A stretch of DNA of 64,000 nt, taken from contig JABHCN010000009.1 of assembly GCA_018673475.1 (NCBI GenBank), forward strand, positions 1 to 64,000, given 5' to 3'. Origin of the DNA: Actinomycetota bacterium (GTDB lineage Bacteria > Actinomycetota > Acidimicrobiia > Acidimicrobiales > MedAcidi-G1). Of this stretch, positions 15,408 through 19,274 are shown one piece after another. Position numbers and translations under genes: made by a program. Every line of letters begins with the position of its first letter. The stretch's first letter is position 1. Under the pieces are notes generated by a model, which was not told where the DNA came from, searched no databases, and worked only from the letters and a program-made list of their open reading frames with translations.

Positions 15408-16307
15408 ATGTCGTCGGAACTCTCCGAACACGGTGGCACGGGGCGCCTGGCGGCGACAGCGGCGGTCACCTGCTGGTCCGCTGGCAACGTCATGGTGGTG
15501 AGCCTCGACCTCCCGGGACTCCAGATTGCCTTCTGGCGCCTGCTGCTCGGAGCAGTCCTCTACGGGGCGGTCCTCTATGGGGGAGGTCGCCGGATTTCAC
15601 TCCGCACGGTTCGGCTGGTAGTCCCTGCCGGCGCCATCCTCGGCTTGGAGATAGGCGTGTTCTTCGTGGCACTGCACTCCACGACTGTCGCCAATGCCAC
15701 GACGATCGGCGCCCTTCAGCCAATCGTGTTGATGGCGGTGGCATCCCGCCGCTTCAGGGAAGATGTCGGTCCGTGGCTGGTTGGGGCGGCCCTGGTGGCG
15801 ATCGGAGGGGTGGCGCTCGTCATGTTCGGTGCCGGAACCGATGTTGGCGTCAACCTCCGCGGAGACGCCCTGGCTGTTCTGGCCATGGTCCTCTTTTCTG
15901 CCTATTTCGTGGTCGTGAAGGACGTGCGCAACCGGGTTGACACGTTCACCCTCCAGACCGTGTCGATGGCCGTGGGGGCACTTGTACTCCTACCCCTGGT
16001 AGCCGTCGACGCCGGAACGGTCGCGGTTCCGTTCCCCAGCGGACCCCAGTGGGTCTGGTTGGCCGTCCTGCTTGCCGTTCCCGGCACGGGCCACCTGCTC
16101 ATGAACTGGGCCCACCTGCACATCCCACTGTCGCTGGCGGGCATGCTGACCCTGTCGATCCCTGTTCTCTCGGGTGCGGGAGCCTGGCTGGTCGTGGGCC
16201 AGCAGGTCACCCTGATCCAGGGCCTGGGAATGGCGGTGGTGATAAGCGTGTTGGTGCTGGTGGTCAGCCGGGATGCCCGCCCCACAGTCGCGGCGGGAGA
16301 TTCCTGA
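15408..16307 (+). CDS. EamA/DMT superfamily transporter
   Basis: The 299-residue protein has ten hydrophobic segments arranged as two EamA repeats, with the second half beginning near residue 155. Members of the family export amino acids, nucleosides or other metabolites, and the substrate here is unknown. The longer open frame runs back to 15321 but overlaps the surE start. ATG 15408 is favoured by the -10 box seven bases upstream. No SD is visible. Confidence 0.88.
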   Translation: MSSELSEHGGTGRLAATAAVTCWSAGNVMVVSLDLPGLQIAFWRLLLGAVLYGAVLYGGGRRISLRTVRLVVPAGAILGLEIGVFFVALHSTTVANATTIGALQPIVLMAVASRRFREDVGPWLVGAALVAIGGVALVMFGAGTDVGVNLRGDALAVLAMVLFSAYFVVVKDVRNRVDTFTLQTVSMAVGALVLLPLVAVDAGTVAVPFPSGPQWVWLAVLLAVPGTGHLLMNWAHLHIPLSLAGMLTLSIPVLSGAGAWLVVGQQVTLIQGLGMAVVISVLVLVVSRDARPTVAAGDS

Positions 16308-16362
16308 CCGACAGGGCCTACCCTGCAGGTGAATCGACAGTCGATCTGGAGGACACACCGCA

Positions 16363-16659
16363 ATGAGCGTAGACGGAACCTGGAACGTGACCATGAACAC
16401 GCCGATGGGGGCCCAGGCGGGCACCCTCACATTCGCCACCGATGGCGGAACCCTCACCGGGACCATGTCGGGCCCACAGGGGTCACTCGACCTGGAGGAC
16501 GGCACGGTTGACGGCGACTCCCTGTCGTGGACGGTCAACATGACCTCGCCGATGCCGATAAAGGTGGAGTCAACGGCCACCGTCAGCGGCGACGAGATCA
16601 ACGGCGAGGCCAAGCTGGGGGCCTTCGGTACCGCCACCTTCAGCGGTACGAGGGCGTGA
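16363..16659 (+). CDS. Small beta-strand-rich protein of unknown function
   Basis: This 98-residue protein is composed almost entirely of short alternating Gly/Thr/Ser/Val strands, with three repeats of a G-x-L-T-G-T/G-D-x-L-S-W type. It resembles a small beta-barrel or lipid-binding-like fold. It has no cysteine, signal peptide or membrane segment. A good SD-like GGAGGA precedes the ATG. TACCCT at 16319-16324 could be the -10 box of a promoter serving this and the next genes. I do not recognise a named function. Confidence 0.75.
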   Translation: MSVDGTWNVTMNTPMGAQAGTLTFATDGGTLTGTMSGPQGSLDLEDGTVDGDSLSWTVNMTSPMPIKVESTATVSGDEINGEAKLGAFGTATFSGTRA

Positions 16660-16661
16660 GC

Positions 16662-16982
16662 ATGGAGTTCTCAACCACCGACGGGGTGCCAGGTCGCACC
16701 GTGGTTGCCTCGCACGGTGTGGCCATCGGCTCCACCGTCAGGGCCAAGAACATAGCCAAGGACATCGGTGCAGGTCTCAAGTCCATTGTGGGTGGTGAGA
16801 TCAAGTCGTATTCAGACATGCTGGCCGACGCCCGTACCGAGGCCCTCGAACGCATGGGCTCCCATGCCGCAGAACTGGGGGCTGACGCCGTTGTCAACGT
16901 TCGGCTGACCACCTCACAGATCATGGGCAACGCCGCCGAGATCCTCGCCTACGGCACAGCGGTCTCGACCGAATCAACCTGA
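16662..16982 (+). CDS. YbjQ/UPF0145 family protein
   Basis: This 106-residue YbjQ-type (heavy-metal-binding domain) protein forms homopentamers in known structures. Visible family features are the T-x-x-x-x-G strand at the start, the R-A-K-N-I-A-K-D-I block, the R-x-E-A-L-E-R-M helix and the A-D-A-V-V-N-V-R-L strand. The start at ATG 16662 is two bases beyond the preceding gene's stop. Function is poorly known. Confidence 0.85.
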   Translation: MEFSTTDGVPGRTVVASHGVAIGSTVRAKNIAKDIGAGLKSIVGGEIKSYSDMLADARTEALERMGSHAAELGADAVVNVRLTTSQIMGNAAEILAYGTAVSTEST

Positions 16983-17007
16983 GCGCCAAGCGGAACCGGA
17001 GCGTCAC

Positions 17008-17553
17008 ATGATGGTTCCCACGGGAGGACGGGTCCCCGCTGTCGACCTGGCGGCACCCGACGGGTCCCCCGTTGCCGTCGACCCAGGGCAGCGGACCTAC
17101 CTGGTCCTCCAGGTGCTCCGTTACTACGGTTGAGCCCCCTGCCTCGAGCTACTCGCGCAGTTGCGTGGGCACCACGAAGAGTTCGTCGCAAGAGATGCGG
17201 CGCTGATGGCGGTTGGCGGTGCGTCCGACGCTCAGGCGCAGCGGCTCACCGACGGCGGTGTCCAGTTCCCCCTGCTCCTCGACCCACAGGGCGCCCTGCG
17301 CAGTGCGCTCGGCCTCGATGACAAGCTCTCCCGGGGTGAGTTGATGGGCTGGCGTTCGATCAGGAACCTTCTCGTCGGAATGGTGAAGCAGCGTCAGGGA
17401 AGGGTCAGCAGGCCACACACCGAGGACCGTCCGGCCGTCGTGATCCTCGACAGTGGCCGGCGTGTCGTCTGGTCCCACGTCGGCAGGGCGGTTGGCGACT
17501 ACCCGTCGATTGACGAGATCCTGGCGGCCATACCGTCAGCGGGCGCCGAATAG
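17008..17553 (+). CDS. Candidate selenoprotein: peroxiredoxin-like (Prx_like2/AhpC-TSA_2) protein with Sec in U-A-P-C
   Basis: ATG 17008 has GGAG six bases upstream and opens a frame that reaches an in-frame TGA at 17131-17133 (codon 42). It then continues in the same frame to the stop at 17551-17553, for 181 residues in all. The sequence before the TGA ends V-L-R-Y-Y-G and the sequence after it begins A-P-C-L-E-L. In the Prx-like thioredoxin-fold family this place reads G-C-x-x-C, so the TGA sits exactly at the first redox cysteine and would give Sec42-A-P-Cys45. The rest matches the family, including F-P-L-L-L-D-P-Q-G-A-L-R near residue 88. A shorter product from position 17161 would lack the active site. 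The alternative is a nonsense mutation (one base from TGC or TGT), making a pseudogene. Confidence 0.75.
17134..17170 (+). promoter_or_regulatory. Putative SECIS stem-loop directly after the in-frame TGA
   Basis: Directly 3' of the TGA the RNA can pair GCCC (17134-17137) with GGGC (17167-17170), CTGC (17139-17142) with GCAG (17157-17160), and CGAG (17145-17148) with CTCG (17152-17155). The apex is CTA, or GCTAC if the last pair opens, with G first. Bacterial SECIS hairpins lie just after UGA and usually have a G early in the apical loop. The loop starts about 15 nt after the UGA, at the short end of what I recall as the accepted range. This is manual folding only. Confidence 0.45.
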
Positions 17554-17579
17554 GTCTCAGGCCTGCGGGGCCGACCCGG

Positions 17580-17585
17580 TAGCAT
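17580..17585 (+). promoter_or_regulatory. Possible -10 box for argS
   Basis: TAGCAT lies about 58 bp before the argS ATG and would start transcription near 17593, leaving a leader of about 50 nt. No clear -35 is visible. Confidence 0.3.
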
Positions 17586-17642
17586 CGGGACGATCCTGCC
17601 GGTGATCCACCGGTGCCGCCACCTGCTCGCTGGACAAGCCCA

Positions 17643-19274
17643 ATGGACGTTCGTGACATCCTCATCGAATCGGTACGGTCCGCGCTCGTCGATCTGGGCA
17701 TCGACCCTCCGCCAGCCGAGGTCAGTCTCGAACGGCCGGCCAACCCCGAGCACGGCGACTGGTCGACCAACGTCGCCCTGGCCTCGGCCAGTGCGACGGG
17801 GCGCAACCCACGGGAACTGGGAACGGCGCTCGCCGAGGCCCTTGAGGCTTCACCACCGGCTCACGTGACGGCCATCGACGTGGCCGGTCCCGGGTTCGTC
17901 AACTTCCGACTTGCCGACTCCTGGCTCCACGACGTGCTCGTCGACGTGGTCTCGGCCGGGTCGGACGCATGGGCAGCCCACGATGTGGGCTCAGGTCGGT
18001 CTGTCATGGTCGAGTTCGTCAGCGCAAACCCGACCGGGCCGCTGCACGCGGGCCACGGACGGGGTGCCTGCTACGGCGACTCCCTGGCCAGGCTCTACCA
18101 GCGCTGCGGCCACGAGGTGACCCGGGAGTTCTACATCAACGACCGTGGCACGCAGATGCAGCTCTTCGCCGACTCCCTGGCAGCTGTCGCAGCCGGCTCC
18201 GAACCCCCTGAGGGCGGCTACCACGGCCACTACATCCGTGAATGGGCAGGTGAGATGCCCGAGGGCGTCGACCCGCTGGAATGGGGGTACGAGCGGGCGC
18301 TGGCAGACCAGCGTCGCGTTCTCGAGAGCCTCGACATCCACTTCGACTCCTGGTTCAGCGAGCGGTCGATGATCGAGTCTGGCGCCATCGACGAGGTCAT
18401 GTCCGACCTCCGGTCACAGAACGCCGTGTATGAAGACGATGGCGCCACATGGTTGAGGAGCAGCGGCCACGGAGACGACAAGGACCGAGTGCTCGTCAAG
18501 TCCGATGGCCAGTTCACCTACCTGCTGCCCGATGTGGCCTACCACCGCGACAAGTTCCAGCGTGCCGATCGGCTCGTAAACGTCTGGGGGGCCGACCACC
18601 ACGGCTACGTGGCCCGCATGCAGTCCGCCATGCATGCGCTGGGGCACGACCCCTCCGAGTTGCAGGTTGCCATAACCCAGATGGTCAGCCTTCGGCGCGG
18701 AGGAGAAGAGGTACGGCTGTCCAAGCGCACAGGCGAAATGGTCGAGTTGGCCGAGGTGGTTGACGAGGTCGGTGCCGATGCTGCCCGATTCACCTACCTG
18801 CTTCTCTCGGTCGACTCGCAGCAGGCCTTCGATCTGGATCTGGTTGCCAGCCAGGTCAACGAGAACCCCGTGTTCTACGTGCAGTACGCGCACGCACGGA
18901 TCCACTCCATCGTGGCCCGGGCGGCCCATGCCGGCATCGAGCGGCCTCCGATCGACAGGGTCGACCTGTCCCTGCTCGGCCATCAGCGGGAACTGGCCCT
19001 GTTGCGTGCGCTACACGAGCTGCCGGACACGGTTCTGCGTGCCTGTAGCGAGCAGGCACCGCACCAGGTGACCACGTGGGTGCGGGACATGGCTGCCGCC
19101 TTCCACGGCTTCTACCACGACTGCCGCGTCATGGGTGACGGCATCGACAAGGGCCTGTCCCAGGCTCGGCTGTGGCTGGTCGAGGGAGTCCGCATCGGCC
19201 TCGTTGTCGCCCTCGATCTGCTTGGAGTTTCAGCGCCCGAGGAGATGTGGCGCGAAGAAGAGGGGGAGGCCTGA
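17643..19274 (+). CDS. argS: Arginyl-tRNA synthetase
   Basis: ArgS charges tRNA-Arg. The 543-residue class I synthetase has the N-terminal Arg-tRNA-binding domain, and the HIGH-type motif as H-A-G-H-G near residue 134 within A-N-P-T-G-P-L-H-A-G-H. The KMSKS-like loop reads L-S-K-R-T-G near 358, and a DALR anticodon-binding domain with D-x-x-x-H-x-F-Y lies at the C-terminus. ATG 17643 is preferred to the in-frame GTG at 17613. Its stop overlaps the lysA start (TGATG). Confidence 0.96.
   Translation: MDVRDILIESVRSALVDLGIDPPPAEVSLERPANPEHGDWSTNVALASASATGRNPRELGTALAEALEASPPAHVTAIDVAGPGFVNFRLADSWLHDVLVDVVSAGSDAWAAHDVGSGRSVMVEFVSANPTGPLHAGHGRGACYGDSLARLYQRCGHEVTREFYINDRGTQMQLFADSLAAVAAGSEPPEGGYHGHYIREWAGEMPEGVDPLEWGYERALADQRRVLESLDIHFDSWFSERSMIESGAIDEVMSDLRSQNAVYEDDGATWLRSSGHGDDKDRVLVKSDGQFTYLLPDVAYHRDKFQRADRLVNVWGADHHGYVARMQSAMHALGHDPSELQVAITQMVSLRRGGEEVRLSKRTGEMVELAEVVDEVGADAARFTYLLLSVDSQQAFDLDLVASQVNENPVFYVQYAHARIHSIVARAAHAGIERPPIDRVDLSLLGHQRELALLRALHELPDTVLRACSEQAPHQVTTWVRDMAAAFHGFYHDCRVMGDGIDKGLSQARLWLVEGVRIGLVVALDLLGVSAPEEMWREEEGEA

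Follow-up and report, generated by a model that had tools for sequence, protein, structure and literature searches.

The gene that opens at ATG 17008 of the window, by which we mean the whole stretch of 64,000 nucleotides that was analyzed, almost certainly encodes a selenoprotein, a Prx-like/SelL-related protein of the thioredoxin fold with selenocysteine (Sec) predicted at the UGA at 17131. This interpretation had been put forward in an earlier note on the same DNA, and it is supported by the full Sec machinery of the host genome, by homologues and orthologues that keep the TGA above a matching SECIS hairpin, by Cys at the aligned column in other relatives, and by a family kind that has already been catalogued. 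The features are collected in Table 1.

Table 1. Features of the selenoprotein gene in the window (strand given) and of the Sec machinery elsewhere in the host genome (G000)
Feature	Position	Strand	Details
Shine-Dalgarno-like GGAG	16998..17001	+	sequence read; spacing to ATG 6 nt
Predicted selenoprotein gene, Prx-like/SelL-related thioredoxin-fold	17008..17553	+	181 codons with TGA as Sec; ATG 17008, TAG 17551-17553
In-frame TGA, predicted Sec codon 42	17131..17133	+	TGA in 67, TGC or TGT in 10 distinct homologues
Cys45 (TGC), second residue of U-x-x-C	17140..17142	+	intact
Putative bacterial SECIS element	17152..17169	+	covariation, hairpin energy, TTG codon bias
tRNA-Sec	G000:C19:46616-46707		67.5 bits vs cut-off 47; anticodon TCA (ARAGORN)
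SelA	G000:C41:5088-6227		398 bits
SelB	G000:C41:6253-7320		271.9 bits
SelD (L019)	G000:C3:22669-23589		364 bits; own TGA at GAG-U-GCK

The frame is present exactly as the earlier note had described it, from the GGAG and the start codon through the TGA to the TAG, and the second Cys, at codon 45, is likewise intact. The sole in-frame TGA of the gene stands in the context RYYG-U-APC, and the next stop is the terminal TAG. Two Pfam families, PF08534 (Redoxin; 32.3 bits against a cut-off of 26.6) and PF00578 (AhpC-TSA; 32.4 against 26), match residues 6-115 of the read-through product; these matches cross the TGA, indicating that the two halves form one domain.

The host is a marine Acidimicrobiia-type MAG of about 2.04 Mb in 78 contigs, 94.6% complete. 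The genome check proposed at the outset, for selA, selB, selD and tRNA-Sec, found all four, with selA adjoining selB on one contig. The trait is common: of the 41 genomes made up by the host and its 40 nearest relatives, 33 have tRNA-Sec above the cut-off and 32 have SelB. SelD is itself a predicted selenoprotein: its TGA falls at the known Sec site of SelD, and a strong hairpin with an 8-bp stem and a GUG loop lies 3' of it.

A profile search of 395 genomes of the class gave matches in 132. Among the family members that were fetched, the codon aligned to the window TGA is TGA in 67 distinct sequences and TGC/TGT in 10, a ratio that is not a population estimate because the fetched set favors high-scoring matches; at scores of at least 110 bits, Sec (TGA) and Cys are the only residues at this column. 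The prediction that relatives would have Cys at the TGA codon is thus borne out, and of the G-C-x-x-C motif that had been claimed the column of the first Cys stands, the motif of the relatives being refined to R-[YH]-[YF]-G-[U/C]-x-x-C. Of 17 sampled genomes that carry the Sec form, a tRNA-Sec gene was detected in 16; of 11 sampled for the Cys form, 5 gave one. It was not found in G318, G325 and G245, which have the closest Cys forms, an absence that is suggestive only, as these assemblies are 64-88% complete; G325 and G245 share a genus with two genomes, G221 and G299, that have both the Sec form and tRNA-Sec. The sole Sec-form genome in which no tRNA-Sec was found at E <= 1e-10 is G094, 96% complete, whose homologue (L026) is a well-conserved TGA form with a SECIS; this is probably an assembly gap.

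Within the same order, the first redox position is also occupied by TGA in other Prx-like subfamilies, in the contexts HRHLA-U-LPC, FF-U-PNC, FL-U-PFC and VW-U-PPC (L030, L031, L032, L045, L040, L046 and L048), which suggests that the order has a rich selenoproteome. A distant homologue, L038, reads G-U-LFR, having retained the TGA with the second Cys replaced by Arg.

A SECIS element had been expected near the TGA, and the hairpin downstream of it satisfies the published rules for bacterial elements. As given in PMC13188914, these are a loop of 3-9 nt, a stem of 4-16 bp, a G in the first two loop positions, a distance of 16-37 nt from the UGA and an MFE of at most -7.5 kcal/mol. The window hairpin has a 7-bp stem (17152-17158 with 17163-17169) and a 4-nt AGUU loop (17159-17162) with G at position 2; it lies 25 nt after the TGA, and its energy, folded alone, is -9.2 kcal/mol. 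The top of this stem with its AGUU loop appears as GCAGTTGC in 32 of the 67 TGA forms and as GCAGTTG in 35, in both cases starting 26 nt past the T of the TGA. In 25 further TGA forms its place is taken by GGTCAGGT, for which most of the examples folded gave a stem capped by a GGUCA loop, and 7 have neither type.

Further support for the hairpin was provided by covariation. In 33 sequences, standard pairs fill 85.7% of the pair cells, compared with 79.4% after shuffling (sd 1.3), and in five pairs both partners have changed; covariation scores 0.249, compared with 0.135 for shuffled alignments (sd 0.017), a value reached by none of 500 shuffles, and in a 12-sequence set it is 0.450 against 0.191. 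Structures slid along the alignment score far lower. The outermost two pairs are frequently disrupted, and longer folds around the hairpin show competing structures. The folding energy of the hairpin region is no better than that of shuffled sequence (z about 0) and, not being significant, was left out of the evidence. When the host genome was scanned with a covariance model of the hairpin, the window scored 62.6 bits and no second clear hairpin site was found; the next match, at 19.9 bits, had no convincing reading frame on inspection. A comparison of 16000-19000 with Rfam produced no relevant match, only a chance one to mir-80.

The loop of the hairpin is formed by the Leu codon at +10 from the TGA, which is TTG in the window. 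Among sequences with Leu at this position, TTG is used in 35 of 37 Sec forms versus 0 of 6 Cys forms (Fisher 4.6e-6), and the close Cys forms L055, L056 and L061 have CTT or CTG. By comparison, TTG accounts for 22 of the 179 other Leu codons close by in these Sec genes (12%; Fisher 6.8e-23 against position +10) and for 11% of the Leu codons in five other ORFs of the window. These p-values overstate independence, the sequences being related, but the direction is clear: the codon is held by the RNA and not by the protein.

These data also bear on the possibility that the UGA is read without Sec, through a reassigned code or through near-cognate suppression to Trp, Cys or Arg. The frame would indeed be open under any code in which TGA specifies a residue. 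However, of 43 long ORFs chosen in the window by a simple greedy rule, 33 terminate with TGA, so that outside this gene the codon serves as a normal stop in the window and the code is not reassigned. Moreover, the alternative at the aligned column is always Cys, tRNA-Sec and the three Sel proteins are all encoded, and the AGUU hairpin with its TTG codon is confined to TGA forms, all of which makes read-through of this kind very unlikely.

No more probable is an arrangement with two products, in which the UGA would act mainly as a stop or as a selenium-dependent switch, a second ORF would be translated from TTG 17161, and the full-length protein would be minor. An ORF beginning at this TTG exists, and Sec insertion is generally inefficient, both of which would suit such a scheme; but TTG 17161 is the very codon of the SECIS loop, whose conservation is explained by the hairpin, and a protein started there would be devoid of the U-x-x-C site and of the first strands of the fold.

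The selenoprotein reading is also consistent with the selection seen in close relatives. Orthologues in three genomes of the same genus are 77-86% identical and all keep the TGA; the G005 orthologue ends at residue 16 because of a contig end, and the gene was matched in 4 of the 7 genomes of the genus, whose assemblies are incomplete. The earlier note had judged both flanks of the TGA to look conserved, and the comparison with the G003 orthologue agrees, giving a dN/dS of about 0.16 (0.146/0.913) on the 5' side and about 0.21 (0.153/0.732) on the 3' side. In a decaying gene this ratio would be near 1; here purifying selection acts on both sides of the TGA, and the check for decay among strain homologues found none. 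A pseudogene or a sequencing or assembly error, in which TGC/TGT had mutated to or been misread as TGA and which would agree with the split ORF seen by a gene caller that lacks Sec logic, is still less probable and was effectively ruled out by the same TGA in orthologues of separately assembled genomes and in 67 distinct homologues, by the strong purifying selection on both sides, and by the constraint on the SECIS.

The named near relatives, three Actinomycetota MAGs that are marine or uncultured, were matched by the same-genus alignment: ARS1426 Acidimicrobiaceae, NIOZ-UU72 and one labelled Microthrix. As a separate observation, the window and G006 (L021) are about 98-100% identical in two blocks (15508-16264 and about 16650-17165), about 65-91% between them and 75-80% over most of the remaining part of the selenoprotein gene, with the shift at 17166 falling at the end of the SECIS hairpin; this pattern looks like recombination between species.

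The AlphaFold2 model of the protein is a thioredoxin fold (mean pLDDT 85.8, pTM 0.82), in which residue 42 directly precedes helix 43-54, placing UxxC at the N-terminus of helix 1. The nearest solved folds are peroxiredoxins (BCP, AhpE, Bcp1/4), ResA and DsbE, and the best PDB profile match is 9us9, a prostamide/prostaglandin F synthase (3.6e-13, nearly the whole domain), followed by ResA. In the proposed mechanism, SelA, SelD and tRNA-Sec would produce Sec-tRNA(Sec), which SelB, bound to the mRNA hairpin, would bring to the UGA, and translation would run on to the TAG to give a thioredoxin-fold protein of 181 residues. Sec42 and Cys45 would then form a U-x-x-C redox pair. Such a pair is in keeping with a thiol-disulfide or peroxide reductase. 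If Prx-like and ResA-type proteins are a guide, the selenolate would most likely attack a peroxide or a disulfide, and a Se-S bond to Cys45 would follow, to be re-reduced by thioredoxin or another thiol.

In many genomes across the class, ordinary annotation would shorten or omit this gene. The collected forms, 67 with Sec and 10 with Cys, constitute a natural experiment on the gain and loss of Sec, in which tRNA-Sec and the loop codon follow the Sec form; they also yield a SECIS consensus, open to testing, for a marine clade that has received little study. We propose tentatively, as a possibility that we do not yet favor, that this Actinomycetota class may have its own SECIS subclass, with an invariant GC-AGUU-GC loop 25 nt after the UGA and a co-evolved SelB to read it, that a sister group inside one family would have changed to a GGUCA loop, and that the element would vanish where Cys takes the place of Sec and tRNA-Sec is lost.

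To judge from its sequence, the protein is a Sec-UxxC Prx-like/SelL-related protein of an already catalogued kind and not the product of a pseudogene; any novelty may lie in the clade-specific SECIS loop together with the paired Sec/Cys data set. No paper on Acidimicrobiia selenoproteins was found in the literature searched, and neither this clade nor the invariant GC-AGUU-GC loop is mentioned in the available parts of PMC9312934, PMC13188914 and PMC2398784. The first two catalogue "Prx-like thiol:disulfide oxidoreductase" selenoproteins with UxxC/UxxU and PF00578, and the third, a marine GOS survey, distinguishes several Prx-like subfamilies, including "Prx-like 1" and "Prx-like 3". Compared by description and at the level of the general kind, the window protein shares with them the AhpC-TSA/Redoxin domain, UxxC, Cys homologues at the same column and an origin in marine bacteria.

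The sole NCBIfam match of the window protein and of five homologues, nearly full length, is NF040769 (SelL-related redox protein); the homologues score 86-118 bits, all under the curated cut-off of 120, and the window protein is not filed under this family because it reaches 80.4 bits. A likeness to AhpC-TSA_2/PRXL2 (SELENOU-type) proteins is seen in the top PDB match and in three homologues that pass PF13911 (38-51 bits), whereas the window protein, at 23.2 bits, falls under the gathering cut-off of 27; eukaryotic SELENOU has a different type of SECIS. Like the SECIS of E. coli fdhF, the window element lies directly 3' of the UGA and has a small apical loop with G in the first two positions, but its loop is an AGUU tetraloop, and the GGUCA loop of the sister-group Sec forms is presumably the closer of the two to that of fdhF.
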